A DNA stretch of 64,000 bases from Undaria pinnatifida. Taxonomy: Eukaryota; Sar; Phaeophyceae; Laminariales; Alariaceae. Position numbers and translations under genes: made by a program. Positions 8,740 through 30,870 of the stretch are shown here, one piece after another. The notes beneath the pieces are model-generated. The model saw only the letters and a program-made list of their open reading frames with translations, was not told the DNA's origin and did not search any database. Every line of letters begins with the position of its first letter. Positions within the stretch are counted from its first letter, which is position 1. The stretch covers positions 1,215,862 through 1,279,861 of the forward strand of contig JABAKD010000024.1 of assembly GCA_012845835.1 (NCBI GenBank), given 5' to 3'.

Positions 8740-8992
8740 ATGGCTATGTTATAAGGTTTAGTTTGGGTAAGCAATCGGTTAACCTTTTGCAAGTGTTCAA
8801 AAACGGACTAACACCCCACTACTACCTTAACAAGTGTGGCGTCGTCGGCAAGACCCGAACCTGCGCGTGAAATCATAACGGATTGGAAACCCACCGTGAT
8901 TTTACACGCAGGTTCGGGTAACGAATGGCGTCGTCGACAGACTACGGGTTTTTCGGGTCGTGGGTTCAATCCCACATCCATCCACCATAATA
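8740..8992 (+). mobile_element. tRNA-like (B-box bearing) dispersed element, copy 1
   Basis: The block runs from a GGTTTAGTTTGGGTAAGC-like start through TGGCGTCGTCGACAG (weak A-box-like) to CGTGGGTTCAATCCCAC (T-arm/B-box-like) and CATCCACCA. A reverse-strand relative lies at about 10080-10250. I could not close a complete cloverleaf with a 5' acceptor strand, so this is tRNA-derived sequence (SINE-like) rather than a called tRNA gene. Confidence 0.5.
8855..8920. repeat. Hairpin with ~23-bp arms
   Basis: The arms acccgaacctgcgcgtgaaa and its near reverse complement tacacgcaggttcgggt flank a short AT-rich loop. It sits inside the tRNA-like element, so it may be a secondary inverted duplication. 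Confidence 0.75.
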
Positions 8993-9543
8993 TACTTTTT
9001 CAGACTTTCCCCATGTCGAACTTGAAAAACACTCTCCCCGGTAAAGTATACCCAGGAAATGAAACGGCTTGGACATGTTGACAGGTCCGCCCGTATATCC
9101 GGCCGACCTGCTATCCCGCCGTTTCAGGGAGGGAGAGTGTTGTAAGGCTTAGTTTGGGTAAGCTACCCGTATTGGTTAGCCTTTTTGCAAGTGAGTGGTC
9201 AAACGGGCCAACCCCAGTAATACCCGATTAATACCCGAGTAATACCCGAGTAGTACCCGAGTATTGTAATTCCTTAACAACACCTTCACCGTAGGGGGGT
9301 ACCTGTTAACGTATTAGTGGGGTATTAGTCCGTTTGACCACTTACAAAAGGCTAACCAATACGAGTAGCTTTCCCAAACTAAGCTTTACAACACTCTCCC
9401 CCCCTGAAACGGCGGGATAGCAGGTCGGCCGGATATACGGGCGGACCTGTCAACATGTCCAAGCCGTTTCATTTCCTGGGTATACTTTACCGGGGAGAGT
9501 GTTTTTCAAGTTCGACATGAGGAAAGTCTGAAAAAGTATATTA
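8988..9543. mobile_element. Fold-back element with ~210-250-bp inverted arms
   Basis: The left arm begins taatatactttttcagact near 8988 and runs through CGGCTTGGACATGTTGACAG and GAGTGTTGTAAGGCTTAG. The right arm (about 9340-9543) is its near-perfect reverse complement and ends at agtctgaaaaagtatatta. The interior, about 9205-9335, holds repeated TAATACCCGAGTA units. The inner part of each arm matches the tRNA-like elements nearby, so this may be an inverted double insertion of that family rather than a classic fold-back transposon. Confidence 0.8.
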
Positions 9544-9544
9544 T

Positions 9545-10080: not shown

Positions 10081-10237
10081 AGTATATTATGGTGGATGTG
10101 GGATTTGAACCCACGACCCGAAAAACCCATGGTCTGTCGACGACGCCATTTGTTAAGGTATTACCATATTTGTCCGTTTGACTACTTGCAAAAGGTTATC
10201 CAATAGCTTACCCAAACTAAGCCTTATAACACTCTCC
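10080..10237 (-). mobile_element. tRNA-like dispersed element, copy 2
   Basis: On the minus strand this reads from the TTAGTTTGGGTAAGC block through TGGCGTCGTCGACAGACC to CGTGGGTTCAAATCCCAC and ATCCACCA, matching 8740-8992 closely. The 3' half looks like a tRNA T-arm and acceptor strand. A retrotransposon primer-binding site was considered, but the similarity extends well beyond such a site. Confidence 0.5.
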
Positions 10238-13464: not shown

Positions 13465-13604
13465 TCACGCCCATGCCGCTCGTTCTCCCGCGGAGAAGGA
13501 AGCTATGTGCCCGAGCCACCTCGCCACCGCCGGCAGCGCCTTCGCTTCCGCGCTCCCGGACAGGAGGTCAAACATGGCGGAGTCGTCCTTTCCGGCGGTC
13601 CATC
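13465..13604 (-). CDS. SerRS exon 13 (eEF1B-like end and stop)
   Basis: Completes a Gly codon, then [31 protein letters not shown] and AGERAAWA followed by TGA at 13467-13465. The pattern (Gly-aromatic, DD/D, F, then RW..HI.S) is that of eEF1B-type N-terminal domains. Acceptor is CACGGCAG. Confidence 0.88.
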
Positions 13605-16600
13605 CTGCCGTGCACATCGAATCACAGGAACAGTATTACAGGCGAAATAGATACTAGCCAGGTGCGATTATCGTGATATCAAAGGTACAAGCACAAATAC
13701 TCAAAAGCATGTCATGCTTCGTTGAAGCTATCGTAGTGCCTACGGCAACACATCATTAAGCGCATACACCTAAAACAAAAATGTGCATGCGTTTCAAGTC
13801 TGTTTTCTTTGGAGGGGAGGGGGGGGCAGGTGCTCCGCCCAGCTGGATTAACCAGAGAAGGGTCGTACCACAGGTAGTAGAAATAGAACCAAAGACGATG
13901 ACAGGACCAGCGACGAACAAAACGCCACCACCACCACCACCACCGCCACCGCCACCGTCAATAAAGACGACGACGACGACGAGAACGCCACTAACACCCC
14001 CGCCATACCCCTCCCCGCCATTGACACCACCACCATCCTCACCCCCACCCGATCACCAACCACCACCCACCTGCCACATACGAAAACGCCGCCAAATGCT
14101 GGGACAGGTTTTCTAAATTAGCCTTCCCATTCTCCATCACCGGGCCCTTCGCCGCAGGCGGTGGGGGGAGACCTCTGCTAACATCCCCTGCCGGAGCACC
14201 GCCTCCCTTAGCCGCAGACCCCTTCTTGCCCGCGTTGTGCACGGCAGGTGCCTTATTCGCCGCTTTTGGTTCCTTAGGCTTAGTGCTGGCCACCACCGCC
14301 CCTGGTGCTACGTAAGCTTTGCCGGTTTCCTCCTTGTACTGTGTCTTGAGGGCTATGAGAGCGTCGATGTGGGGAGTGAGGGTCGCCTTGTCCGCCTTAG
14401 ATTTCTTCAGCTCGCGGATCTCCTCCCCCTAATGGGTGTGGAGGGAGAAGACACGGACGGGACAGGGTGGGGGAGGAGGGGGGGGGGGGGGGAGGTTACC
14501 GCTGACACAGGGGGTGGGGGGGGGTACTCATTTTCAGTCATAGCCGGGGGTTTATCATCGTCATGCAAAATCGTCTCCTATAAGACCATAACCCTCTCGT
14601 CCTTACAACGCCGGGACGGAGCAGAACGAGTTTCCACCCACGTGGAAGAGGGGGGAAGGGATTGAAGTCAATTTACGGGGGAAAGGTACAGGACCGTAGC
14701 GTATTGGAACAAGGACTTCACAGTCCATTAGAGTTGATGTGGACAGTCAATACGCATGAGTTTAGTCGGAATATTTTCCCAGGTGCTATATCTAGTTGTT
14801 TGCACAATCACTACGCATGGGTACACTGAATACCTTTCCTAAATGCCAAGAAACACAAAAATATATTCAGCGTTTGCCAATCTCCAAAGCATCTGCTCCT
14901 TTCTTCTCCATCACAAGCGTGGTCTTCACAGATTCTTCAGTGGCATCTCTGCAGCCCCGATCACAGAGACAGCCTCGACACGCCTTGTTGCTTCATAGCT
15001 AAGGGTTAGAAATACCACCCAAACGTTCCTTGCGCATTTGGACACAGTGGGTCAAAATAAATCTTAAACCTTACGCTTGGAGCTAATCTTGTAGATAGCC
15101 GTGCCCATAATGACCTATACCTTGGCAACGATCTTGGCCGAAATTTCCGAGGCAGCAGGGGATTCTTCTACCGTCGCCCCTGCCCCCGAAGCCACCGCCG
15201 CCTCCTTTGCAGCCGGTGCCGCCGGAGCCTTAGCCGCGGCTGCCGGGGCGGGAGCATAAGCTTTGCCCGCCACCTCCTTATACTGCGCCTTGAGGGACAG
15301 GAGTTCGTCGATGTGGGGTTGTATGGTCGCCTTGTCCGGCTTCGACTTTTTTAGCTCGCGGATTTCGAGCCCCTGCTTGTCAAAATAGGAGAGGAAGGAG
15401 GACGTGGGGAAGCGATGGGGGGGGCAGGGGGGAAGGGGGTGGGCGGGGGCAGGGTAACCGACCGAGAATAATTTAGCAGAACGTTTTCATCCTGTTCCTA
15501 CTCTTCACAGCGGGAAACGTGGGGTAACGCGAAGTTTGATACGTAATGGGAGTCAAACGCAAGGGACTCAATTGCAATTCTGTCGTCGTTTCGAATGCAG
15601 GGGGTTCAGCTTCATTTCTGCTGGCTCTTACAATAAAAACAATGAAAAGCAACGAACCGGCTTGCCTTGGCGTCAATTTCCTTGTCCATCAAGTCCGTCT
15701 CGGACCCTCCAACCCCCCCCCCCCCCCCCCCCCTGCCCCTCCTCCAGCAACCGCCAGCGAAAGTTAACGCAACCCGCGCGCTTGATGAAACAATTTCCCT
15801 CCCGAAGCAGAACCGAGGCGCAAGACAACTGTCGCCTACAAAAAACACGAAGACAAAAACAAAACAGAAACAACAATGTTCTCGAAAAATAAATAGCTTT
15901 ACCTTGGCGTCGATCTTTGCGCCAATCAAGTCCGCCTCGGACCCTTCTCCCCCTGCCCCTCCTGCCGTCGCCTGCGAAGCTTCAGGCAACCCGCGTGGGG
16001 TAGCCCCGTCCCCGTTAGCGGCTGTCTCCGCGGCCACAGGCTTAGCGGCGGCGGGTTTCTTAGTCGAGGTAGCGTACCCGCCGCGGGTTGCTCCTTTGGC
16101 CTCTCGCTTGCCTTTGGGAAGCTCCTTGACGTAGTCGAGGAATGTGATGCCCCCCATATAGGGCACTAGCACCTGTTGAGAACGGGCGTAACGTTTGGTT
16201 TTGGGTGGGGTTTGGGGTTAGGAGCGATTTGAGGGTGGTCCGGCCTGGCCTGGATTGGCAGGGCGTGGAAACCCACACCCACACCAACACCAACATTGGC
16301 ACTAACACCGACATCAACACCATCCCCCGAACCCAAGACATAACACCAACCCACCAACCACCGCTATCATCCACGCCAACACCGATGCCAACACTCCCGC
16401 CCACACCTACACCCTCCCTTGCCCACACCGACACATACACAACACAAACACAAACACCAGAAGGACAAAGGGGGAGGGTGGAGAGGAGGAGGGAAGAGGG
16501 GGGGAAGAAGGGGGGGGGGGGGGCGGGGGGGGGAAGGGGAGCGGAGGACCCACGCCCACACCAACACCAACACCGACATCGACACCGACACCGACACCGA

Positions 16601-19600
16601 CATCACCACTTACACCACCACTCAAACCAACACCACTTATACCAATACCTCCTCTCGACCACACTAACACCAACATCGACGCCATCACAGGGGGGGAAGG
16701 AGCACGGGAGTAGAGGGAAGAGCGAGAGGGGCACGGTAGGGATAGGGGGGCGGGAAGGCCCACACGAACGACACCACCACCCAGACCGACACCACCACCC
16801 AGACCGACACCAACCCCAGCACCTCCCACCACCACCCTCAAACACCCCACCACTGGTAACACCACCGCCGCTGACACATGCTACAAATAGTACAGAACTA
16901 CTAATAGTACGGTAGGAGCGCAGCAACCATTATCTTTCTGAATCTTCTCACTACATAGACTACTCTTTATTACCAATACTATTATACTATAACAAGTAAT
17001 ACCCCTCGGAGGAAAAAAAGCGATTATGAGTAAGCTGAAAGTGCAGCCTGATATCGATAACATCTCCTAGGTGTAAAAAGCAAAATAAGCAAAACAAAAT
17101 GGCATTCTAGCGGCATTGGGCTAAGAACCACCGAAATTCAGAAGAAAAAAAGAAAAAAAAGTGCTGCCTAGGCATCCGCTACCCTGCCCAACACCAACAC
17201 CAACAATAAGGTTGCCTCTCTCCCCCGTAGCCATGAACCATCTTGCCTCGACCACCAACACCAGCGCCAACGCCCACACCCACACCCACAGCACCACCAC
17301 CACACCAACCACAAGCACCAACACCAGCATCCTCATCGACACCAACACCGACACCACTTGGATTGGCTTCCCTCCCTCCCACGTAACCATGGTGTCTCTC
17401 TCACCTCCGGCACAGCGACGCCGGTGGGGGTCTGGCAGTTCTCCATGACGCAACAGTAACACGCTCACCAACACCGCCGCCACCAACAACACCAACTACA
17501 ACATCACCGACACCAACGCCGCCAATACCACCACCAACCACACAACACCACCACCACCCGACAACGAACACCTACACCCACCCGAACAGCCTCCACCGCC
17601 ACCAACCCCAAAAACCACCGCCAACACCAAAAACCAACACCAACACCAACAATAACACCACCAACACCACCAACCCCCACACACCAACACCAACATTGGG
17701 GTAATTTCTCTTGCCTCGACCCATCCCATAGTGGGGATTGCACTTTTTGGACCCAGTAGTGTTTCTGGCCGGTCGAGATCTTCGAGCGAGGAAATACCGG
17801 TTAGTCTTGATACCCTTTATGAGTGTACTAGTTTCAGGAGGAGCGTGTGCAAGTGCTCGTCGGATTGCGCGAATGAATGCATTCCAACTCATATGTCCGG
17901 TGAGATTATGAGCTCTTTCTAATAGATCAGAAAATTCCGCTGCACCTCACCCGTGGGATTACTCCTCGAGGACAGTGGCGCCGGTGGGGCTCTAGGAATT
18001 CTCTAGGATGCAACATCAGCACGAACACCGACACCGACACCTGCAACACTGACACCCATCACCACAAACCCCCCCACACCAACGCCCACACCAGCCTTAA
18101 GGGGGCCTCTCTCACCTCGGGCACAGTTACGCCGGTGGGGGTCTGGTAGTTCTCGAGGATGCACGACATGGTGCGAGTGGTCGCGCACAGGGTGGAGTTG
18201 AGCATGTGTACATACTTCTTGTCGCCCTGCCCCATCTTCTTTTGCCCCGAGCGCACCTCCATGCCTCGGCTCTGCGGAGCAAAAGATAAAAACGCGGCGC
18301 GTTTGACACGTCGAGCGCAGAAGAATCCGCCGTACGGGATATACGGGTGGGACACACGCGGCATAAACATCATTCGCAAGATAACACACCACACGCCCGG
18401 TATGAGGGGTGCAAAAACGCGAGAAAGACCATGCATGTGACACACAGATGAGCCCAGACAAGAAGCAATCACACACCGCTGCGACCCAACCCAACGCAAC
18501 GCTACCCAACCAAACCCAACCCAGCCCCTGCACTTTTGAAGCGAACGTAATAGTCGGTGCAGTTAGAGCACGAGGCGTGCGCTCGGAACGCCTCGTACGC
18601 GGGGAACCAGGCCTCAAGGACGTACTTTTCGATCAAAAAGTTGTTGACCCCAACCCCCAACGCGAATTCCAACCCGACCAGACCCAACCCAACCCAACCC
18701 AACCCAACCCAACCCAACCCGACCAGACCCAACCCGACCCAACCCAACCCAACCCAACCCAACCCAACCCAACCCAACCCAACCCAACCCAACCCAACGC
18801 AACCCAGCCCAACCTCTGTACATTTGAAACGAACCTGGTAGTCAGTGCAGTTGGAGCACGACACGAGCTCTCGGAATTCCTCGTAGGCGGGGAACCAGGC
18901 CTCAAGGTCGTACTTCTTGATGGCCGCGTTGTTCAGCTCGCCCGAGACGATGTTGATCACCCGGTAGGAAATCCCCAGGCTCTGGTAGAACTCCTCGGCC
19001 GTCTTGCTCTACGTGTAGCGACACAGCAATCACAACAAGCAACGTGCCAGGTACTCAAACGTTAACTATTGAAACAACTACTGCATCTGAAATAAATACC
19101 ATAGTCTTCGACGTATCAACTTTTATTTTGCTGAGCTCGCCGGGAACGATGTTCATCAACCGGTAAGGTATCCCCAGGTACACCTCCCGGGCCTCCTCGC
19201 TCAAAGGGAAAAGTCACAACAACCGACCCAAGCACGTACCAGGGTACAAGGCATTCAGGTGTTTTTTTTATCAAAAAAATTACAAAATTTTCAAGACATC
19301 TCAGCTGCGAGATTGGGACTCTTCGTGGAACTCCTCTGAAGCAAGCTTCGGGGAGTACTTGATCGCGCGTGGAACAGGGTTGACATCATGAAAAACAACA
19401 AAAAGGGTATTTATTGCTGAAAAACACGACAAAGACTCACAGCATGACGTAAACTGCAATCTGCGTATATACATACGTACCGTGGGCATAGTGTATGCAT
19501 TGCATGCCGGGGGGGAAAATGCAAGACACCTGTGACCACGGCTAACCTAAGTTGTCCAGAATGTTGCTGAGGGTAAAAACTCTTACGAATTGAGCTGGAA

Positions 19601-22600
19601 AGTAAAGAGCGAAGATCGGGAAAAAAAAAAAAAAACGCGCGTGTCGAGGCAAACGCTCACCATCTCGTCCTGCATGGCCGAGCTCTTCTCCAAATCCCCC
19701 TCGCAGATGCAGAACTGCTCGACCTTCTCGAACTGGTGGACCCGGAAAATTCCCCACGTGTCCTTTCCGTGAGCCCCCGCCTCCTTACGAAAACACGTAG
19801 ACACGCCTCCATACCTGCACGAACAAACGCCGAACCAACAAAATTACAACAGTCCGCCAGCTGTAGCCTTTTCGTTACCGCGAGAAATATTCCACACAAA
19901 ACAAAAATTCCAATAATTAAAGGAACAGTCCCGTTACGTATGAAACGGCACATCTGCTCCCCCTTTTTTTTGTTGCTATTCGTGAAATTCACGTGATACC
20001 TCGTAGTTTGGCTGAGATTTATGTAATGGTTTCATATATCTTGCCGGAAAAACGCAAAGACTGTCCCGAAAAAACGTTAGTGCGAGTTCTTAAGGGGTAA
20101 CTTCTCCAACGGGTGCACCCGGAATTTCCCTACTTGCCCCTACCGTGCGCCCCCGCCTCCTTGCGGAAACAGGTAGACACGCCTCCCACCTGTCCGCAGA
20201 AACCCCGAAGGACAAAAACGATCAGTGTGTTGGATATGACCGTTTCACTACTGGCAAAAGTGTCCCGCACTACGGCTAAGGCAATTTAGTTCGTCCCTCG
20301 AAACGAGGGTGCAGTTCGAAAAGTACACCAGGAAAAAAATCCCACGTGTCCTTGCTGTCACCCCCCGCCTCCTCGTTGAAACAGGTACACACGCCTCCAA
20401 AGCTGGCCGAAAGGAACGCTAGTTCGGTAACGTCGACGGCCCCGCTGGCTGATTTGTGAGAAAAGTGGCACGCTTAACCTGATAAACAACCCACCGGCCT
20501 AGGTGTGCAGTCGAACCAACACTATCGCACAACAAACACGAAATTCCAATGGCAGTGGGCAGTTGCTGAGTTAAAGAACCCCGTCAGCCCGACAAACTTA
20601 AGCCAAAAAAACGTCACCATAAGCAGGTGTCCCCCAGTGCAGCGGTGGTGCGCTATTAATAGAGCAACATGACCGCCTTGTTGGGGAAGCCGCCGTGTTC
20701 ATTCCACGTTTCGAGTGCAGTTCCGCAGTCGCACCACGCAATTTTGACCGCCTTATTTCGGGATACCGACTTACTCAGACCGCCTTATGCCGGCCGCCCC
20801 GGTGGCGTATCAGGTCATCCTCGAGCCTGGTACAGGTCAGTTTCGTGAGTTTGAATCCCCCCGAGTGCATACTCGTATAAATTCGTGGGGACTTTTTCTT
20901 GTGCACAAATCGACTTGCGGAAAGCGCGAGAGCGTGAGCTAGCAACACTCGATGAAAAATCGACGAGCAGTTGGATTGCTGAACGCTATGCGCGATAAAA
21001 ATTGAAGGCAAGAACCCGGGGGGGGGGGAAGGGACGACACCTGTGACCACGGCTTGTCCAGAAGCTGGAAAGTAGCTGTGTGTGGAAAAAAAAGGGGGGG
21101 GGGGGGCGTACTATTAATACACCCCTATCGTAGCACGCAGTTGGATTTTTCCGTTCCAGTACCGTGGTGTACCCGATTCAAGACGTTCTATATTACATCA
21201 AGATAAACGGAATTAACGCCAATACAACTGGAAACCCATTTTGGGGTAATTTTACTTGGAATAAATATAGGAAGGGGTTTGGGGGCTCTAAAGGGGTTAG
21301 GGGCTTTCAAATCGGCTTGCCACGACGCCTTGTGTCGCCTATGCTAAAATCTACCAGGTACAGCGGGTGTCCGATTTGAGAGCTCCCCTATTACGATAAA
21401 ACGGATGGTCAGAATTCGGCTTGCCACGGGCCTTGTGACGCCAATGCCAAAAACTAGGTATTAAAAACTACCAGCCCGGTATGTAAAACGTGACGCCTGT
21501 ACGAAGACGCACATGGCACCCAATCTGGGGCAAGAGCGGAACGGAGATAAGAGCATTGACACTGGCATGTTTCACGGCGTTCTTAAATTGGATAAACTGT
21601 TGTGTACCACCTATGCCTCTGCGGTCTGCGTCCTCCACCGCAACAGTCAAGGCACGAGGGGATAAAGCCAGTTATTACGGTGGAGAGGAAGTAAGCCAAC
21701 CAACCGATTCACTAGTTGGGCGGCGAATTAAGCCAACCACACCTGGGTGGCGAATTCAGCCAACCACACCAGAGTAGCAAATCAAGTCAACCATACCGGA
21801 CTTTAGTCTTTCCCGACATAAAACACATTACGAGCTACAAACACACAAAAACATACACCAGTCTGACACAAAACACACACACTCAGCATGGACCGCAATC
21901 AAACCACGGTGATTGACACCTAGCCGACCGAAAACAACAGTCGGCGACTTATAGTCATCCAACCGACAACGCTACGAAGCACAAACTTCGTCGAGTTGGC
22001 TAACCTGAGAGGCAGCTCAGACTCCTTCAGCCACTCCCCCTTGTGGAAGGCACAAAGCGGCTGCTCCGAGGTGGCGATAAGATATTTCTCGTCCGTGCCC
22101 TCCCCGCTCACCTGTTCCACCCCCCACAAAAGACACACAACCACAACAGCAGGAGGGGGGAGAGGGCGTCAAACTCTGCTCAACTTGACACCCAGGTAAA
22201 GCAACCCTAACGGCGAGAAATGCGTTATGGACCTATGATGAAGAACGTGCCACCCTAGTGCGACGCGTTCTACGACAAAGGCACTGTGCCTCTTCTTGGC
22301 GTAACTGTTTTTTTAGTGAATGGGCCCCTTAAAGCCCTTACAACTGGAAACCCGTTCTGGGGGACGCATTATGAGTACTTAAAATGTGTATAGGGAGGGG
22401 TTTCGGGGCTCTAAAAGGGTTTAACCCAAAAAAATCGTGGTCGAAATATCAGTCTTGCTTGACAAATGTAAGCAACACGTTAATGTCCTCATCAAGAGAT
22501 TCATGGAAATACTTGCAAAAAACGGGCGATCGATGTATTGATCGGTGTTTTGCGCAGCTTGCAAAGATGAGTATCGACTCTAAATTTGTCAAAGTCACAG

Positions 22601-25600
22601 CTGACGTTGTCGTAAAAAAAAACTCAAGTGTGAATATTTTTTAAACCCAGGCCATGGGGTTGCAATATCAGTTCAGTTTAACCCCTTTAGAGCCCCCAAG
22701 CCCCTCCCTATACTAATTCCAAATATTTTCATACCAAAAAAAGCTTTCCAGTTGTAAAGGCATCAAGTAAGTTTTGGCCTCAAAGGGGTATTATACTATT
22801 TCTAGTATACAGCTCCAAAGTGAGGAGCCTCGGAAAATAAAAAAGGCGCACCTCTACCGTACCGGAGCATGTATCATGCAAGCATCAATCACCATGCTGC
22901 TGCCTGTGTATCATACACATCATGAGACGGCCAGTCAAGGGAAAACGTCCAGCGATCAAGGGTTTCAAATCGATCGTTCCACACCAAAACCTGGAGGTTC
23001 GACGTCAGTCAAGGTAAAATATTCGAAAATTCCCGTCTGTCAAGGCGTCAAAGTGCCGCCTCCTAACATCTTTGCTGTGCATCGTACGTCCAACCCCCGG
23101 CGAGACACTTCAGACCCACCGCCTGCCTCGAGCAGCCCGGGCGAACAGCCCGGGCTGAGCTTCGAGTGGCCGATGGCGCCACCGTCAAGCTAGTTCGGCA
23201 TGTTTTCCCTCGAGACTTCCAAACGGGTGAAACCCTTTTAATAACCCAGAAAAGGTCACCATAAACAACGAATAAGCGGTATAGTGTGAGGGTCATTACT
23301 AGCGATTAATTTCTCCTCCCGATTTCCCTGATTGTCCTGTTTAATTTATTGTTGGTTCCCAATTTACTTCTACCTGCCGTAAATTATTTTCAAGGAGGAA
23401 TACTAGCGGTCCTCATTTTTTAGACCCACTACTCTGTGAGGCATTTCCCGGCATACGGAGAAAACGTTCCTGTTGTTGCAAGGTTTCTTGACAAAAAAAA
23501 TGGAGAAAAAATCGCAAAAACGACCAAAAGAAGCGTGTACCACAGTCGGAGGGAAACTATTGATACCAGGGTATTATACATCAATCTAGCATGGTGCTAA
23601 GGCATAAAACAACAAGAAAAACTAAACAGGACGGGAAGACACAAGCCCAGACGTATTATGTGCTATGTATGTCTTGAACCCTTATTCCGCGAAGAGCAAA
23701 ACGACGCCTCTCTACCTTGTAGAGCTCCTCGTCAAACTGCTCCAGCTGGGCCACGCCTGCCATCACATCCTTCGTCATGAAGAACGGAGGCTGCAGGACC
23801 GAGTACTTCCTGAAGCAGTGGTTGATACACGTGGGTCACGGGGAGACGGGGCAAATAATCAAGAATGACATCCGTCATGATGAAGAACGGACGCTGTAGG
23901 GCCGGGCGCTTCGTGAGAAAATGGGCTGTTACGGGACCACGGGGAGAGAAGGCAGGCAACTCATTAAGAACGCTAGCAAAAGATAACTGACCGACACGCT
24001 GGATTCCTGTTGAGAAAGGAGGCGTTCTACACTAACTTCAGTACAGTGGCTCCAGGATTATTTTTCTCCTGGAAATATCAGCTAGTTTTTTCTTGGTGTT
24101 CGTTACTTTTAGCGGGTGATTTTCGCTGTGCAACGCACAAAGACTAAACAACAACAACAACAACAACAACAACAGCAACACGATGTTCACGATGCTGACC
24201 AATCGAAATCACCCTTGTCTTGAGGGTTGACAATCGCTTGTCACGACCTCGTCCTACAGAGTACAGCACCATCCCGAATAGTGCGGGGTCTCACTTTAGT
24301 GCGGTAAAAATACCTTGTCCTGACCTCGTACTGAGAAACGCACAATACCGGAATAGTGCGGGGTCCCACGTTAGTGCGTTGATGACACCATGTCACGACC
24401 TCGTACATAGAAACGCACTATACCGTACTATACTGGAATTGTGCGGGGTGTCACTTTAGTGCAGTGAAAATAACTTGTCACGACCTGGTATATATAACCG
24501 TACTATACCGGAGTGCGGTATCCCACTTTAGTGCGGTGATAATACCTTGTCACGACCTCGTACGGAGCACCGCACTATACCAGAATAGTGCGGGGTACCA
24601 CTTTAGTACGGTGATAATACCCTGTGAAGGTACCGCACAGATGAGGGACCACGACTTAATCGACAGGTTTGATGCGATACCCAACACAATATTACGGCAC
24701 TGACCTTTTTCGTGAAGAAATCGATGCTGTAGTTGATCAACGCCTGGTTCAGAACAAGTCCTATGAATAAACCAACCAATCCATGTGATTTCGATGTTTG
24801 ATATAGCGAAGCTTTCGTTTCAGTATCAACCCAAGAAACACAGGGATTCCACCGGATGGAGGGCTAAAAACGCTTGATACGATGTATCGATAGTTCGATA
24901 TTCCGATATATCGGAACTTTCGATACGATGTGTGACACAATTTTGCGATCCTGACCTTTTCCTGAGGAAAGCGATGCTGTAGTTTATCAACGCCTGGTTC
25001 AGGAGAAGCCCGGCGTCCCGCAAGAAGTACGCGCGGTGTCCGGCCACCCCCACCCCCCTTTCCGGCTCGTACCCGCCGATGCGGTGCAAAACCTGCAGAA
25101 ATCAGACAAAACGAAAACTATTAAAAGAACAAGACCCGTTTCAGGTATGTTGTACACTAATAACAAGCCAACAGATCAACAAAAAAACAAAAACAAAAAT
25201 AGAACAAAACAAATATCAAAGAAGGGCGAACAAATGGCACGTAAACAACAAAGTGAAAACTAAGCAAAAAAAAAAACAACATGAAATAATTCTGCTAGCT
25301 TAGACGAGAGCAACACATCACACGTTGGAAGTGGGATGGGGTGGGGGAGGGGTAGGAGATGGGGGAAAGGGGTGGAGGGTGTGGAGGGTGTGTCGGCACA
25401 TCACCTCGTGGTGGTGCATGTACTGCTGGCCGGTAGGGTTGGGTCCGAAGGTGCTGGTGACGATGCTGTCCTTCTCTTCATCGTCCGAAGTGGGCACGTC
25501 CTTAGCAACGATGTTTCCGATCTTCGGCAGCAGCTTTGCCACCTGCAACCCCAGCTCGGCTGTGCGGGAGGGGAACGCGTCGCATACGCGAAGCCGGACA

Positions 25601-28600
25601 CGAACACAAACGGAAACCAAGAAATACATTTAAGAGTAAGATAAGAGGAACAAGAACACGCGGACAATAAACAATACACACGAACATGGACATGAACACG
25701 AACACGAACACCATCGCACACGGATAAGAATACCGAGAATAACAACCAAGAACAAGTAGAACAAGGGCAACATCCAGAACAAGAACAAGAACACGTAGAA
25801 CAAGAGCAATATCCAGAACAAGAACACAAAGACGAAGGCGAACATCAACACCAACACAAAACTTTGGGGAGGGCTTTAGAGAGGGGCGGTGGCTCCACGC
25901 ACGCTTGCTGCGACGATTGACGTTGCCATGTTGCAACTTGCGTGCCACATCTCATAAGAAACTGGGATATTGGCCCAAGCTCGAAATATCGATTCGCTGA
26001 ATCACATCGCGTTGTTAGCCCTATCCCCCCCGCCTGGTATCCTCGCGATTTTTGTGCTGGTACTTGACGAAAGCTTTGGTGTATCCAATATTGAAACCGC
26101 ATCGATTATGCTCTTCGTTCATTGTTAACGTATCGTAATCGATTGTCGTTCGATACCCGATACCCGACATAAGTAGTTGTCACGGGACACTCATCCAACA
26201 TGGATTCCACAGCATTCATTTCCTCAACCACTCCCAATAAGTTGGAGTTGTATCGAAGCCCTTTTCGTGTAGAGGTATACCAGCTTATCGTCTCGGGGCC
26301 CGATTATCGCTTCTATACAAAGCAATAAAGTTAGAAACCGAGTTATCGTTCGATATTCGACATGCGATATCCGATATTGACATGACGTCGAAAAAACGAT
26401 TACCGTTCGATACCTGATACCCAACACAAACGATCATCACGGGGCGCTCACCCAACGCGACTTCGACGACCTTGACCTCCTTAACCACCTCGACAATTCT
26501 TGCCGCGTTTTCTGCGTCCTCTTGGCCGGCTTTCTTTGCCTTGGTTACTTCCTTCTGAAATCGGTTCTTGTCCTTGTTCAGGAAGTCGATGCGAGAGCGG
26601 CACTCACGCCACTGGGTGTCCAGGTCTATCACCTGGGGGTTGGTTGGTTGGTTGGGTGGTTTGTTTGTTGGTTTGTTGGTTGGTTGGTTAGTCGGTTGGT
26701 GGTTTCATTGGTTGATTGGTTATCATTGTGGGCGGATTGCTCGGGATGGTTGCTTGGGGGGTTTGGCTGGTGAGCATGGTTTGTGACGAGCACGGTTTGG
26801 TTGGTGTTAGGGCATGGTTCGTTGGTTTGCTGACATGATGGGTTGGTATTTATTTATTTTTTTCACTTACTTTCCAGCTTCTGGACAAGCCGTGGTCACA
26901 GGTGTCGTCCCTTCCCCCCTGTTCTTGCCTTCAATTTTTATCGCGCATAGGGTTCAGCGACCCCGCTGCTCGCCGATTTTTCGAGGGCTTTTCACGGGTC
27001 GGGTCAAATCTCGCGGGTCGGGTCGGGTCGGGTCAGCTGACCCGACCCGACCCGCGAAATTTTCGAGACGTCTTGACCCGACCCGACCCGACCCGCGAGA
27101 TTTTCGAGACGTCTTGACCTGACCTGACCCGACCCGCGAGATTTTTGAGACGTCTTGACCCGACCCGACCCGACCCGCAGGATTTTCGAGACGTCTTGAC
27201 CCGACCCGACCCGACCCGCGAGATTTTGAAATCCTCCTGACCCGACCTGACCCGACCCGCGATAATCCGGGTGACCCGCGAGATTCGGGTCGTCTGGCGA
27301 GTCACGTTAACTTGACCCGTGTCATTTCTCACGGGTCAAAGTCAAAAAGTCACGGGTCAAAGCATGTATACCTCGGTCGGTTGGTCGGTCCTTGGTCCCT
27401 CGTACTTTTCCCAGTATGTCGTGTTCTCAGCGTTTTTTACCGGCATTGTTTGCAGCTGATGATTATGTCATGTGGTGTGCGCGCGAGAAATAGGAAAGAA
27501 ACCGCAACCCACATGCATGGACATGCCCGTACCGCTAGACCACCGGGTCGACCCGACGAGCGACCCGACGAGCGAGCTAGTTATAAGTTACAAGTGCGAT
27601 CTCCGGCCCCGGCAAGCAGTCTAGCTGAGCCGCCGCCGGCAGCAAGCCCACAACTGGGGCGGTGGATCTGTCAGCAGGGGCTGCGATCCGCGAGGATGCG
27701 TTGTCTGCTGCTGGTGCTTGCTGCTGCTGCTGTGCTGCTGCTGCTGTGCTGCTGCTACTGCTGCAGCTGCTGCTGCTTGCTGCTGCTTCGACAACGGCTG
27801 CTCTGGCTTTTGAACGTTTGGTCACATTTCGTACTGGTATGATAATTCTCGAGCTAGCTACTACTACTACTACTACTACTACTAAGATAACTGCTGTTGT
27901 ATCCATCTTCTATCTGTGCAATCTCCAGCCCCGGCAAGCAGCTTAGCTGAGCCGCCGGAAGCCCACAACTGGGGCGGTGGGTCTGTCAGCAGGGGCTGCG
28001 ATCCGCGAGAATCCGGGGTCTGCTGCTCGTGCTTGCTGCTGCCAGTGCTGCTGCTGCTTCGACGACGACTGCCCTTCCTTGCCTTTTTACATTTGGTCAC
28101 ATTTCGTACTGGTATGACCGTAATATTACTACTGTTGTTACGGCTTCAGTAGGTACGGGATTCGCGTCACACTGCTGTATGCCTTGGTACGAGTAGCTAG
28201 GGGTACTGCCTGATGATTGTTCTGCACGCTGTGATGACATGTGATCGGAGCATAGGCACGAGGGAGGCAGGAAGCGGAAATGTTTGTATTTTATTGGCGG
28301 ACCCGCGGGGTGCCTGCACGGCACCAATGGCTCTCAGCAGTAAGTTTGAAAAAGGCGGATCCGCCGGCCAGATCCGCGGGTTTGACCCGCGGGTCAGCCC
28401 AAAACAACTCACGGGTCATCATGGCTTGACCCGCGAAGCGACCCGTATCTCGCGGGTCATGACCCGACCCGACCCGCGAGATTTTGAAAACCTTTTGACC
28501 CGACCCGACCCGACCCGACCCGCGAGATTTTGAAACCTCTTGACCCGACCCGACCCGACCCGCGAGATTTTGAATCCTCTTGACCCGACCCGACCCGACC

Positions 28601-30870
28601 CGACCCGTGAGATTTTGAATCCCCCTTGACCCGACCCGCGGGTCGGGTCATGACCCGTGAAATGCCCTGGATTTTTCATCGAGTGTTGCTAACTCACGCT
28701 CTCCCGCTTTCCGCAAGTCAATTTGTGCACAAGAACAAATCCCGACGAATTGATACGAGCATGCACTCTGGTTATTAACGGTTGGCTAGTGTGTTAGTAC
28801 GTCCGTTGGGGTGGGTGGTCGCTCGGTTGGTTGGTTCGTTGGTATGGCTTGTTTTGGTGGGTTGGATGGAGAGGTTGCTCGGTTGGTTGGTTGGTCGGGG
28901 GCGGCTCCACGACTGGTTGATTGGTCGGTTGGGTTATTGGTGGGCTGTAGGCTAGTGGGTTAGTCGGTTGGATGTTCCGTTTGTTGGTTGGTTCGGTTAG
29001 TTGCGTAGAAGGTTAGTTCGTTCTGCGGGTAGTCAATTGGTGGGTTGGTTGTTTGATACGTTGTTTCAGAGGGTTTGTTGGATTGGTTGGTCGGCCGGCG
29101 GCCGGCCGGGTGGGTGGTCGGTTCGTTGGTCACAAGGCCGGTGTGTTGACGGGTGCGATGCTTTGGCGGGTGGTTAGTTCGTGGGTGGATTGTAGTGCAA
29201 TGGATTGGTCGGTTGGTTGATCCGTTGCTTGGTCAATTGGTAATTTGGCTGGTCGGTTGCCTGCTTGGTGCGTCCTTTGATTGGTTAACCGGTTAATTGG
29301 TTGGTTGGTTGGTTGGTGGACTGACTGACTGGTTGATTAGTTTGGCGTTTGGCTGTTGGTCGCAAGAAGCACCGATGGGTGGGTAGAGGGGAGCGGCAGA
29401 TTATCAGTCCAAAATAAAACACAAAGCGATACATAACTATATGATGAAGAGCAAAGAGCTGGAGCAACGGGCCTGGCCGCGGTCGGAAAGCGGGGGTCAG
29501 CTTTTCCGGTGTCATTTCAACAACAAAAAACTGCAGCTACCATTAATAGTGCATTACAGCAGGATGCCTTCGGATCGACAATCTCCTAATCATGTGATAC
29601 TTGTATACTCGGTCTGAATAATCTATTACGCCACATACTATGGTCGATTCGGGAGATGCTTTCTTCGTGGGGCCTTGGACCTCCAACGGGTTTGCATGCG
29701 AACACAAGCTCTCAACTGCACTACCGCAGTACACCAAGCCGCATTCATCCGCAATTCGATTTCAGCACTTCGAATCGTTCGCCATGCCGTGTTCGTGAAC
29801 CTTGCAGGCCGTTTTAAACGCGGAAATAGCGCAGAAGCAAACATCACGCTCCGCAGCTATAAACAAGGCAGGTACTCGTGTTATACCTGCCTACCCGGCA
29901 ACTGCCTGTAAGTGAACATGCCAGAGGTACGAAACGCGTAGCACAGGAGGTCGGACACTAGTCGGACACTAGTCGGACACTACCCTTAAACCTGGCATAT
30001 TGGAGATCGCTGATCCTGCTCATACTGCCTTGTTAGGTACCTGGTACCAGTTATGCTGTACATCAAGCACACTGACACCTTGAAAGACTGCTGCAAAGAA
30101 TTGCGCTCAGCTTCGACAACACTGCCCGAGCTTCCACAGAATACTACCGGTTTGTACTGCACAAGGAGTCCAAATGAAAAGACGAACCCTAACCTTTGCC
30201 TCATAGAAGACCATCTACAATCTACCAGGTACAACACGATCGCACGATCACGGATCACCGACACACAGACAGAGTCGCGAGGGACAATGCCATGCGGCAC
30301 AATCGCGACAACGCTGTCCCATGAGTGAAGACAGCAGTGATGCGGGTTGAATCGAGTTGACAGCAGTACTTCTGCTTGCGGCAGTGAACCGCAAACGCAC
30401 ACCTGGCATCGCCCTGGATGCCACAAGAAACAGGCGCAAAACCCGATAGAAGTGACAGACCATGAGTACCGGTACTGCTGGTACGACAAGCGACAACCCT
30501 GTCCACAACAATTTACAGCGGCAGTACGGCCTCTCTTTGATATCGATCTGGCATAACCGCTGCGGTATAGTAAGGAATCGTGTACAAACATTGCGAGTAC
30601 GAGACCAACCACCCAACCCTGTACGCAATTCCAAATGCAAACAAGAGCACGTGCTTGAGCAAGGACATGTCGGCCGTGCTTCGCTAAAGTTAGTGAGTCT
30701 AGGTACGTAGTCACAGTAGTGTAGCTGGCTGAAGTACCCACAGCAGTGCTCTAAGCAACTCCCACCTCATCCACGATGTCAGGAGACTCGAATCGTCTCC
30801 TCTGAGATTCCCGAATTACTTCTGGATCGCCGCCGCGGTCCTTCCGGAACATGTTGATATCGATCGGCAT
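13465..30870 (-). CDS. Seryl-tRNA synthetase, cytosolic type, with C-terminal WHEP-WHEP-eEF1B-like extension (13 exons)
   Basis: Charges tRNA-Ser with serine in the cytosol (class II synthetase). Exons on the minus strand are: 30870-30766, 26632-26452, 25559-25405, 25092-24956, 23809-23716, 22111-22005, 19814-19661, 19008-18835, 18271-18116, 16172-15903, 15375-15121, 14428-14071, 13604-13465. All introns are GT-AG, phases agree at every junction, and the sum is 2286 nt (761 aa plus stop). Domains: N-terminal [10 protein letters not shown] typical of eukaryotic SerRS; tRNA-binding coiled coil, about 36-120; TSE serine-loop 238-240; motif 2 FRKE 268-271; SCSNCTDYQ 361-369; motif 3 around [12 protein letters not shown] with Arg402. 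A Lys/Ala linker follows, then WHEP1 (about 503-551), WHEP2 (about 588-635) and an eEF1B N-domain-like module (about 698-761). Typical eukaryotic SerRS is about 450-515 aa, so the extension of about 300 aa is the oddity. No transit peptide is evident. Confidence 0.96.
13605..14070 (-). other. SerRS intron 12
   Basis: 466 bp. Contains (CCA)n/(CCG)n-like runs at about 13925-14060 on the plus strand. No exon copy seen. Confidence 0.85.
14071..14428 (-). CDS. SerRS exon 12 (rest of WHEP2, linker, start of eEF1B-like domain)
   Basis: [39 protein letters not shown] parallels exon 11 almost residue for residue. A Lys/Ala/Gly/Pro linker leads to [16 protein letters not shown], the first helix and turn of an eEF1B N-domain-like fold. 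Acceptor is CCATTAG; donor is GGCAG|GTGGGT, phase 1. Confidence 0.88.
14429..15120 (-). other. SerRS intron 11
   Basis: 692 bp. Holds G-rich tracts at about 14465-14525; the remainder has no recognised feature. Confidence 0.85.
15121..15375 (-). CDS. SerRS exon 11 (rest of WHEP1, start of WHEP2)
   Basis: [40 protein letters not shown] is the main body of a WHEP domain. An Ala/Pro-rich linker follows and then EISAKIVAK, which begins the second WHEP. The acceptor could be ACAAG|CAG or three bases later; both keep frame. Donor is AAG|GTATAG. Confidence 0.88.
15665..15712 (-). pseudogene. Partial copy of SerRS exon 10 3' end (intron 10)
   Basis: The minus strand reads [15 protein letters not shown], against [14 protein letters not shown] at the end of exon 10. 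It is followed by GCAAGC where the real exon has GTAAAG. A C tract of about 23 bases (15714-15733 region) adjoins it upstream. This is a third copy of the WHEP first-helix module, without its own second part. Confidence 0.85.
15903..16172 (-). CDS. SerRS exon 10 (end of catalytic domain, linker, start of WHEP1)
   Basis: [20 protein letters not shown] closes the catalytic domain. A Lys/Ala/Gly-rich linker follows. The last residues, [11 protein letters not shown], form the first helix of WHEP1. Acceptor is CTCAACAG; donor is AAG|GTAAAG. Confidence 0.92.
16205..17720. repeat. Hexamer/nonamer ACACCAACACCGAC minisatellite arrays in SerRS intron 9
   Basis: Degenerate ACACCA/ACACCG/ACATCG repeats fill about 16270-16440, 16550-16700, 16770-16860, 17185-17365 and 17460-17695, broken by G-rich tracts (16490-16540). 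They produce Thr/Asn/Pro- or Val/Gly-rich open frames on both strands that are not genes. Confidence 0.9.
17390..17450 (-). pseudogene. Copy of SerRS exon 9 3' end plus donor (distal)
   Basis: The minus strand reads [14 protein letters not shown] followed by GTGAGAGAG, nearly identical to exon 9 [22 protein letters not shown]. Exon end and donor site are both copied; it lies downstream of the real exon. Confidence 0.88.
17952..18003 (-). pseudogene. Copy of SerRS exon 9 3' end (proximal, decayed)
   Basis: The minus strand has CCCCACCGGCGCCACTGT and CTCGAG, matching the exon 9 end, but the donor GT is changed to GA and the frame is broken. Confidence 0.75.
18116..18271 (-). CDS. SerRS exon 9 (motif 3)
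   Basis: [40 protein letters not shown], then [12 protein letters not shown]. Motif 3 with its class II arginine lies in CATTRT. Acceptor is TCCGCAG; donor is GAG|GTGAGA. Confidence 0.95.
18545..18652 (-). pseudogene. Copy of SerRS exon 8 3' half with intact frame and donor
   Basis: The minus strand reads [20 protein letters not shown] then [19 protein letters not shown]. Exon 8 has [20 protein letters not shown] and [18 protein letters not shown]. The first intron bases are copied too. No convincing acceptor AG precedes it, so it is treated as an exon-derived intronic duplicate. Confidence 0.88.
18665..18815. repeat. (AACCC)n pentamer array in SerRS intron 8
   Basis: About 25-30 units of AACCC with GACC and GACCAG variants. 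On the gene (minus) strand this is GGGTT. It separates exon 8 from its downstream copy. Confidence 0.95.
18835..19008 (-). CDS. SerRS exon 8
   Basis: [40 protein letters not shown], then [24 protein letters not shown] and SCSNCTDYQ are diagnostic for SerRS. Acceptor is ACGTAG; donor is CAG|GTTCGT. Confidence 0.95.
19130..19205 (-). pseudogene. Decayed copy of SerRS exon 8 5' part
   Basis: In intron 7 the minus strand reads [20 protein letters not shown] then GELSK, against [20 protein letters not shown] and GELNN in exon 8. It is a truncated, diverged copy upstream of the real exon. A second, weaker copy ([16 protein letters not shown]) lies at about 19310-19370. Confidence 0.78.
19661..19814 (-). 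CDS. SerRS exon 7 (motif 2)
   Basis: [20 protein letters not shown] then [14 protein letters not shown] and a short acidic segment ending SSAMQDEM. It carries motif 2 (FRKE) and the ATP-binding FRVHQFEK strand. Acceptor is TTCGTGCAG; donor is ATG|GTGAGC. Confidence 0.95.
20112..20196 (-). pseudogene. Copy of SerRS exon 7 5' part plus acceptor (copy 1)
   Basis: In intron 6 the minus strand has GGACAG followed by [15 protein letters not shown], matching exon 7, then an in-frame TAG where the real exon codes DTWG. The acceptor CAG is retained. Confidence 0.88.
20312..20402 (-). pseudogene. Copy of SerRS exon 7 5' part (copy 2)
   Basis: The minus strand reads [20 protein letters not shown] then a diverged stretch, against [20 protein letters not shown]. 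The catalytic FRKE is mutated to FNEE, so it cannot be a functional motif 2. Confidence 0.85.
20790..21087 (+). mobile_element. tRNA-derived SINE, copy 2 (in SerRS intron 6)
   Basis: A-box-like TGGCGTATCAGG at 20803-20814 and B-box-like GAGTTTGAATCCC at about 20847-20859. The body has TTGTGCACAAATCGACTTGCGG-type sequence, AGCGCGAGAGCGTGAG and GATAAAAATTGAAGGCAAGA, and the tail is GACCACGGCTTGTCCAGAAG. It lies opposite to SerRS transcription. Confidence 0.82.
21100..21310 (+). repeat. Dispersed GGGGCTCTAAAGGGGTT-core repeat, copy 2
   Basis: ACAACTGGAAACCCATTTTG at about 21226, then AGGAAGGGGTTTGGGGG and CTCTAAAGGGGTTAGGGG. Matches 11690-11800. Confidence 0.7.
21464..21780. other. SerRS intron 6 segment with an unassigned minus-strand open frame
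   Basis: 21468-21650 on the minus strand is open for 60 codons with a mixed, protein-like composition, but no family is recognised. 21690-21790 holds short GGCGAATTAAGCCAACCA-type repeats (3 copies). Confidence 0.4.
22005..22111 (-). CDS. SerRS exon 6
   Basis: [20 protein letters not shown] then [15 protein letters not shown]. It includes the TSEQ serine-recognition segment. Acceptor is GGAACAG; donor is CTCAG|GTTAGC, phase 2. Confidence 0.94.
22255..22880. mobile_element. Inverted-arm copy of the GGGGCTCTAAAGGGGTT repeat family
   Basis: 22338-22430 carries ACAACTGGAAACCC to CTCTAAAAGGGTTTAA; 22670-22770 carries the reverse complement from TTTAACCCCTTTAGAGCCCC to CCAGTTGTAAAGGC. The outer right part (CTATTTCTAGTATACAGC, AGTGAGGAGCCTCGGAAAA) resembles 47215-47300. 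A non-autonomous fold-back element is the likely explanation. Confidence 0.6.
23716..23809 (-). CDS. SerRS exon 5
   Basis: [20 protein letters not shown] then [11 protein letters not shown]: the conserved QPPFFM segment after the motif 1 helix. Acceptor is CTGCTTCAG; donor is AAG|GTAGAG. Confidence 0.95.
23866..23935 (-). pseudogene. Copy of SerRS exon 5 5' part
   Basis: In intron 4, just upstream of exon 5, the minus strand has GAAGCGCCCGGCCCTACAGC then CGTCCGTTCTTCATCATGAC, matching GAAGTACTCGGTCCTGCAGC and CTCCGTTCTTCATGACGAAG of exon 5. The frame is broken by insertions. Confidence 0.82.
24155..24182. repeat. (CAA)n microsatellite
   Basis: About nine CAA units in SerRS intron 4. Confidence 0.95.
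24225..24630. repeat. About 80-bp tandem repeat, 5-6 copies, in SerRS intron 4
   Basis: Units share CTTGTCACGACCTCGTAC, CGCACTATACC, GAATAGTGCGGGGT and CACTTTAGTGCGGTGA. Copies differ by small indels. It yields repeated open frames on the plus strand that are not a gene. Confidence 0.9.
24706..24768 (-). pseudogene. Copy of SerRS exon 4 3' end plus donor
   Basis: The minus strand reads [18 protein letters not shown] followed by GTCAGTGCC, against [17 protein letters not shown] ending AAAAG|GTCAGGATC in exon 4. Similarity runs on into the intron. Confidence 0.9.
24956..25092 (-). CDS. SerRS exon 4
   Basis: [20 protein letters not shown] then [19 protein letters not shown]: the core preceding motif 1 and the motif 1 helix. 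Acceptor is TTTCTGCAG; donor AAAAG|GTCAGG, phase 2. Confidence 0.94.
25405..25559 (-). CDS. SerRS exon 3
   Basis: Completes the split Ala codon, then [17 protein letters not shown] (second coiled-coil helix and the KIGN motif), [10 protein letters not shown] and QQYMHHHE. Acceptor is CCGCACAG; donor is GAG|GTGATG. Confidence 0.93.
25590..25860. repeat. GAACAC/AACAAG degenerate repeats in SerRS intron 2
   Basis: Runs such as CACGAACACGAACACGAAC and AGAACAAGAACAAGAACACG. The minus strand gives a Phe/Val/Leu/Cys-rich open frame that mimics a membrane protein. Confidence 0.85.
26150..26250 (-). pseudogene. Copy of SerRS exon 2 3' end plus intron start
   Basis: In intron 2, plus-strand GATACCCGATACCCGACATA and CACGGGACACTCATCCAAC match GATACCTGATACCCAACACA and CACGGGGCGCTCACCCAAC at the real exon 2 donor. 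The minus strand reads [19 protein letters not shown] against [21 protein letters not shown]. Confidence 0.75.
26452..26632 (-). CDS. SerRS exon 2
   Basis: Residues 36-95 plus one base. Begins [20 protein letters not shown], the first helix of the tRNA-binding coiled coil, then a Lys/Glu/Val-rich heptad-like stretch. Acceptor is CCCCCAG|GTGATA; donor is TTGG|GTGAGC. Confidence 0.93.
26638..26815. repeat. (GGTT/GGTTT)n repeats in SerRS intron 1
   Basis: Degenerate TTGGTTGG and TTGTTTGTTGG runs start right at the exon 2 acceptor (pyrimidine-rich CCAACC on the gene strand), so they may supply the polypyrimidine tract. Confidence 0.85.
26868..26990 (-). mobile_element. tRNA-derived SINE, copy 3, tail part
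   Basis: CTTTCCAGCTTCTGGACAAG, CCGTGGTCACAGGTGTCGTC and TTCAATTTTTATCGCGCATA match the SINE tail of copies 1 and 2. The sequence then breaks into GGGTC repeats; the missing middle resumes at 28672. Confidence 0.8.
26991..27365. repeat. CGGGTCGGGTC / CGAGATTTT minisatellite block 1
   Basis: GACCCGACCCGACCCGCGAG followed by ATTTTCGAGACGTCTT, repeated with about 45-50-bp periodicity. The same consensus recurs at 28410-28670, and the GGGTC core at 40315-40735. Confidence 0.9.
27595..28125. repeat. ~320-bp tandem duplication with GCT/CTG microsatellites
   Basis: Both copies carry CCCCGGCAAGCAG, CTGAGCCGCCG, CCCACAACTGGGGCGGTG, CTGTCAGCAGGGGCTGCGAT, a CTG/GCT run, and TTTGGTCACATTTCGTACTG then GTATGA. 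The first is at 27595-27843, the second at 27917-28118. A (CTA)n run lies at about 27857-27884. Confidence 0.9.
28410..28671. repeat. CGGGTCGGGTC / CGCGAGATTTTGAA minisatellite block 2
   Basis: Four to five units of GACCCGACCCGACCCGCGAG then ATTTTGAATCCTCTT. Same family as block 1. Confidence 0.92.
28672..28775 (-). mobile_element. tRNA-derived SINE, copy 3, body part
   Basis: TTTTTCATCGAGTGTTGCTA, CTCACGCTCTCCCGCTTTCC and GTCAATTTGTGCACAAGAAC continue the SINE from where copy 3 broke at 26990. The tRNA-like head is missing or too diverged to see. Confidence 0.78.
28785..29345. repeat. (TTGG)n / GGTTGGTC degenerate repeats in SerRS intron 1
   Basis: A long degenerate GGTTGGTTGGTCGG array with a GGCCGGCGGCCGGCC palindrome near 29090-29108. 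Confidence 0.9.
29346..30765. other. 5' part of SerRS intron 1, no recognised feature
   Basis: Contains three short direct GTCGGACACTA repeats (29948-29983). The open frame 29986-30741 (minus, 251 codons) overlaps the intron and plus-strand frames and has no recognised domain; it is not called. Confidence 0.45.
30766..30870 (-). CDS. SerRS exon 1
   Basis: Codes residues 1-35, from [16 protein letters not shown] to ESPDIVDE, the conserved start of eukaryotic SerRS. Ends phase 0 at GAG|GTGGGA. The ATG is chosen because family homology begins exactly there. Confidence 0.95.

Follow-up and report, generated by a model that had tools for sequence, protein, structure and literature searches.

The window analysed here is a 64,000-nt stretch of Undaria pinnatifida DNA on contig 31 in an assembly of 511 Mb and 68 contigs, and positions refer to this window unless marked otherwise. 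Its minus strand carries a seryl-tRNA synthetase (SerRS) gene, whose 13 exons we set by hand from reading frames and splice sites, without a gene finder. In the spliced model, GT-AG borders are found at 12 of 12 introns, phases are consistent and no internal stop occurs, which gives a coding sequence of 2283 nt, or 760 codons plus the stop; a preliminary description had put the product at 761 residues, one too many. An in-frame stop lies 7 codons upstream of the start codon. The exons are as follows:

30766..30870, minus strand: SerRS exon 1, start codon at 30870, beginning of the N-terminal domain (Seryl_tRNA_N, residues 3-113)
26452..26632, minus strand: SerRS exon 2, N-terminal coiled-coil domain (gene model, Pfam, phmmer)
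25405..25559, minus strand: SerRS exon 3 (gene model, phmmer to SerRS structures)
24956..25092, minus strand: SerRS exon 4 (gene model, phmmer to SerRS structures)
23716..23809, minus strand: SerRS exon 5 (gene model, phmmer to SerRS structures)
22005..22111, minus strand: SerRS exon 6, catalytic core (gene model, Pfam, phmmer)
19661..19814, minus strand: SerRS exon 7, catalytic core (gene model, Pfam, phmmer)
18835..19008, minus strand: SerRS exon 8, catalytic core (gene model, Pfam, phmmer)
18116..18271, minus strand: SerRS exon 9, catalytic core (gene model, Pfam, phmmer)
15903..16172, minus strand: SerRS exon 10, residues 422-511, with the conserved SerRS C-terminus (422-437), an Ala/Lys/Gly-rich linker and the start of WHEP1 (match from residue 506)
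15121..15372, minus strand: SerRS exon 11, remainder of WHEP1, linker, start of WHEP2 (WHEP-TRS 58.5 bits alone)
14071..14428, minus strand: SerRS exon 12, remainder of WHEP2, linker, start of the eEF1B-like domain (WHEP-TRS 50.7 bits alone)
13465..13604, minus strand: SerRS exon 13, remainder of the eEF1B N-domain-like module, stop codon 13467-13465

Twelve partial copies of exons 4, 5, 7, 8, 9, 10 and 13, which are 75-87% identical to their sources and on the same strand (blastn, E≤1e-3), sit in adjacent introns or immediately downstream of the gene:

24761-24707, 23912-23865, 20186-20101, 20399-20336, 18633-18551, 19178-19128, minus strand: partial exon copies 1-6
17452-17405, 18012-17965, 15778-15729, 15725-15666, 13145-13096, 13230-13195, minus strand: partial exon copies 7-12

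In 12 of 12 cases, a copy upstream of its source exon corresponds to the 5' or middle part of that exon and a copy downstream to the 3' part. This polarity fits tandem duplications with one breakpoint in the exon, which leave the exon itself intact. Elsewhere in the window, an inverted repeat at 8987-9544, with arms of 199 nt that are 97% complementary and 160 nt apart, looks like a small hairpin transposon of the MITE type, and a shorter inverted pair joins 8747-8801 with 10177-10231. No tRNA genes were found in the 64 kb by ARAGORN with the bacterial code.

The catalytic part of the product is recognized by several profiles. In Pfam, it matches Seryl_tRNA_N (PF02403; E 1.2e-20, residues 3-113) and the class II core tRNA-synt_2b (PF00587; E 1.1e-43, residues 223-411), and in NCBIfam it scores 438.7 bits against the serS equivalog TIGR00414, for which the cut-off is 301.65. 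Its best PDB match by phmmer is 6gir, ‘Serine--tRNA ligase, cytoplasmic’ (E 3.8e-153, residues 3-437). With the in-frame stop so close upstream of the start codon, no targeting peptide was seen on the product, barring a missed exon. On these matches, the gene encodes a eukaryotic cytosolic-type SerRS with the standard coiled-coil N-domain and class II core.

Exons 10-13 add a tail to this enzyme, and they occupy exactly the span 13465..16172 that the preliminary description had joined in frame to the catalytic exons. The same description placed two WHEP modules in the tail, which the profile search bears out: WHEP-TRS (PF00458) matches the whole protein in two stretches (Pfam, E 1.8e-29), and exons 11 and 12 taken alone reach 58.5 and 50.7 bits, both above the Pfam cut-off of 32.5. 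In a PDB search, the WHEP part comes closest to 1d2d (E 2.6e-9) and 1fyj (E 1e-5), which we take from their molecule names to be repeats of the multifunctional synthetase EPRS. By these scores, the WHEP match is far above chance. The linkers of the tail are of low complexity.

Both WHEP modules are interrupted by an intron at the same position and in the same phase (between ..AK and G.EIREL), and the two are 79% identical in DNA across 110 bases. The shared intron site and phase, together with this identity, fit the tandem duplication of a unit made up of half-module, intron and half-module. Between WHEP1 and WHEP2, 13 of 26.5 silent sites differ as against 14 of 90.5 replacement sites, for a dN/dS of 0.22 (Fisher p 0.001) in what is a small test by a simple method. 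This bias toward silent change fits purifying selection, under which both copies would have been kept as protein.

The intron positions also bear on whether the tail belongs to the synthetase. Introns 10, 11 and 12 each fall inside a module, and exons 11 and 12 each bridge two modules. Splicing extends the WHEP1 profile match from positions 7-52 in exon 11 alone to positions 3-52 (Pfam), the 1d2d alignment crosses the join between exons 11 and 12, and the alignment to 5dqs_D, the structure matched by the end of the protein, crosses the join between exons 12 and 13. Because the introns cut the modules and exon 10 joins the end of SerRS to the beginning of WHEP1, a separate downstream gene for exons 11-13 is very unlikely, and this candidate was rejected on intron positions and phases. 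The alternative that SerRS stops after exon 10 and that exons 11-13 form another gene or transcript, which the preliminary description had itself raised, could draw on the fact that read-through of the exon 10 donor in some isoform would yield a shorter SerRS product. Even so, WHEP1 runs past the end of exon 10, and exons 11-13 all start mid-module in compatible phases, which makes that alternative highly improbable on the sequence.

At E≤1, the last ~60 residues of SerRS have a single match among 177,635 distinct PDB sequences, the EF1-beta chain 5dqs_D (phmmer, E 2.9e-4, 24.5 bits); their reading frame is open, and the SY..G and RW..HI positions are shared with EF1-beta. 5DQS is described as an unpublished structure in which eEF1B-alpha was crystallised with the N-domain of human EEF1G (PMC10452860). 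In it, the GST-like domain of eEF1B-gamma holds the eEF1B-alpha N-domain. Compared with eEF1B-alpha (EF1-beta), whose N-terminal domain the SerRS end resembles, the SerRS product lacks the exchange domain EF1_GNE (PF00736; absent at E≤1, Pfam). When the SerRS tail was aligned to three eEF1B N-domain stretches, each Smith-Waterman score was reached by 0 of 2000 shuffles; these stretches (two from the alga's own genome and one from 5dqs_D) were picked as eEF1B, and the test gauges similarity, not discovery.

The open searches for relatives of the end domain were the PDB phmmer run and a genome search, and the latter returned three matches at E≤10, of which two are the gene's own exons. The third, on C38 (E 0.117, 33% identity, one stop inside), has an EF1_GNE place 1.4 kb away in the same orientation; not significant alone, it counts because the sole match outside the SerRS gene falls in an eEF1B gene. 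By eye, the intron of the end domain lies ~10 residues downstream of the intron site in the C38 eEF1B gene, an offset that leaves recent exon shuffling from the C38 gene without support. The eEF1B N-domain-like terminal module of the preliminary description stands on the PDB hit and the shuffles, but no Pfam family matched it up to E 1, either within the whole product or alone. We consider the eEF1B-like match to be above chance, on a modest score and over a short stretch. We are nearly certain that the architecture predicted for the product is SerRS followed by two WHEP modules and an eEF1B N-domain-like end.

The EF1_GNE domain was found at three places in the genome. The region C38:10760000-10767999 holds a further eEF1B gene or pseudogene, with an in-frame TGA in the exchange-domain match that may reflect intron read-through in this unspliced search. 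The C-terminal domain of EF1G is also present (PF00647, E 2.6e-21), and GST_C (PF00043; E 9.6e-10, 39 bits, cut-off 20.7) lies ~1 kb upstream of it on the same strand. Of the two pieces searched on the eEF1G side, the second yielded this GST_C match, whereas for the first the Pfam matches were weak and to unrelated families, IR1-M (0.0013) and Aminopep (0.015), both under cut-off.

A genome search with the whole SerRS gave 16 matches at E≤0.01 among the best 30 candidates scored, and these are the 13 exons, an exon-8 fragment in an intron, the WHEP of another gene and an organelle-type SerRS. No second cytosolic-type SerRS was found among the best candidates scored, so the tail sits on the sole one seen, and 0 of the 16 matches is an mRNA retrocopy. 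The other enzyme, a divergent SerRS with 41% identity at C32:17997000-18006999, is probably organelle-type, as read from its divergence; its last exon as read stops 8 residues after the MGG motif, without a WHEP or eEF1B-like tail. Pattern searches of viral contigs gave 7 hits for the SerRS tail and 5 for the core, none of them confirmed, and 0 of 82 hits for the end part in prokaryote contigs was confirmed. For the EsV-1-7 domain, a first look gave 2167 candidates, and 150 of the 150 that were scored are matches; the 14 control genomes, which are prokaryotes where a name is given, gave 0. This family is expanded in brown algae, patchy elsewhere and also found in viruses (PMC7457493). We take its abundance here as a sign of a brown alga.

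The genome carries WHEP beyond the SerRS gene. With 8 candidates scored, there are 5 WHEP places at E≤0.001 and 6 at E≤5, two of which are the SerRS gene; at E≤5, 2 of the 14 control genomes also match, none over cut-off. Upstream of AspRS-like exons and on the same strand lie the WHEPs of C27 (NF003483 3.2e-19, PF00152 1.5e-8) and C48 (TIGR00458 0.00097, OB-fold 1.5e-7), and the WHEP of C57 lies upstream of ProRS-like exons (TIGR00408 2.9e-10), where all of these synthetase scores are for single exons of unspliced genes and fall below whole-protein cut-offs. The weakest case is C48, whose first WHEP piece reaches 31.6 bits against the cut-off of 32.5. We infer that WHEP shares a transcript with the AspRS-like genes (C27, C48) and with the ProRS-like gene (C57). 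The stretch C26:28591501-28591584 also resembles WHEP, but weakly (E 0.21, 20.9 bits).

Given its architecture, SerRS probably docks to the eEF1B complex. In the mechanism that we propose, the end domain would bind the GST-like domain of eEF1B-gamma, as the N-domain of eEF1B-alpha does, and this binding would place SerRS beside the exchange factor by which eEF1A is recharged. Added tRNA binding near the active site would come from the WHEP pair, and jointly the tail modules would hand Ser-tRNA to eEF1A, much as may be compared with ValRS in the vertebrate eEF1H complex. A cytosolic SerRS whose tail passes Ser-tRNA to eEF1A via eEF1B docking is in our judgement the best explanation of the locus, and a reasonably likely one, held with slightly more caution than the docking itself.

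The end domain might instead dock SerRS into a multi-synthetase complex, through the GST-like domain of a synthetase or scaffold and not through eEF1B-gamma. GST-homology domains of EPRS, MetRS and the AIMPs help assemble the animal complex (PMC7373986; PMC10452860), and in this genome the WHEPs beside AspRS-like and ProRS-like genes may be signs of a tagged set of enzymes. Against this, the sole solved match at E≤1 is the eEF1B-alpha domain, not the GST domain of MetRS, EPRS or an AIMP. GST-domain structures of MetRS, EPRS and AIMP exist. One such entry, 2UZ8, is a structure of EEF1E1 (PMC10452860). We favour eEF1B docking over a multi-synthetase complex because that sole match is to the eEF1B-alpha domain complexed with eEF1B-gamma, the gene for which is present in the genome, and we regard the multi-synthetase alternative as unlikely. 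It is less likely again that the end domain has no partner, that the WHEPs give non-specific RNA binding and that the fusion is neutral or lineage-specific. Such a reading would agree with the weak score of the end domain (24.5 bits, no Pfam family), with the low-complexity linkers and with the twelve partial exon copies in or by the gene, which are a sign of a duplication-prone region. However, the eEF1B-like stretch has kept its open frame and its SY..G and RW..HI positions, and the WHEP copies show the bias toward silent change.

Beyond eEF1B docking of SerRS, we raise a broader and tentative idea, which we think less likely than not: this lineage of complex multicellular algae may have built its own tagged synthetases, with WHEP on SerRS, on two AspRS-like and on one ProRS-like enzyme, and with SerRS filling the place of vertebrate ValRS on the eEF1B complex. 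If so, the tagged set would be an independently evolved aminoacyl-tRNA channelling complex. A SerRS that has an eEF1B N-domain as well as the WHEP pair would imply that an enzyme not known for eEF1 wiring can link to the elongation factor complex; it would offer a simple test case for tRNA channelling outside animals, and the independent gain of such domains in large multicellular lineages would find further support.

Appended domains help to set which synthetases enter supercomplexes, and knowledge of them comes mostly from animals, plants, yeast and a few parasites. AARS Online (2024) places WHEP in GluRS, GlyRS, HisRS, MetRS, ProRS and TrpRS, and GST in CysRS, GluRS, MetRS and ValRS; in the part of this source drawn on, SerRS is in neither row (PMC11580382). 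EPRS and fly MetRS each carry several WHEPs (PMC4394549), and plant cytosolic AsnRS carries an inserted WHEP (PMC7564348), which is missing from the AARS Online table and makes that table incomplete. Nor does the part of the table used here have AspRS under WHEP (PMC11580382), whereas AspRS-like genes adjoin WHEP in this genome. Trypanosomatid SerRS is grouped without a characteristic feature (PMC8319005). No SerRS bearing a WHEP or eEF1B domain is described in the portions used of PMC7564348, PMC3359775, PMC4394549, PMC11580382, PMC7373986, PMC6792207 and PMC8319005, and none was found in the open-access literature, sampled in part. The preliminary description had held the combination to be undescribed on SerRS, and in that respect it agrees with our search, but its list of WHEP carriers was incomplete, since it omitted plant cytosolic AsnRS (PMC7564348), ProRS (PMC11580382) and, apparently, the two AspRS-like genes and the ProRS-like gene of this same genome. 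We found no earlier description of a WHEP plus eEF1B-like tail on SerRS, synthetases with appended domains being known as such. The SerRS-WHEP-WHEP-eEF1B architecture may sit unremarked in other algal annotations.

CysRS binds eEF1-gamma through an EF1-beta-like domain. Human CysRS and ValRS, like the SerRS here, have a GST-type domain on the synthetase (PMC11580382), and ValRS joins the eEF1 complex (PMC10452860). Those two enzymes are class I and have no WHEP listed in the part of the table used (PMC11580382), whereas this SerRS is class II and has the domain at its C-terminus, behind two WHEPs. With EPRS, MetRS, GlyRS, HisRS, TrpRS and ProRS, it has in common a WHEP of ~50 residues, although SerRS stands outside the WHEP and GST rows of AARS Online as drawn on here (PMC11580382). 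The case resembles that of plant AsnRS, in which a lineage-specific WHEP is found on the cytosolic form only of a synthetase that has no WHEP in animals; unlike in SerRS, the AsnRS WHEP is single and lies inside the catalytic domain, with no eEF1B-like domain mentioned in the sections used (PMC7564348). Vertebrate SerRS with UNE-S likewise has a lineage-specific C-terminal extension (PMC3359775), but in the algal enzyme the extension reads as WHEP-WHEP-eEF1B-like.
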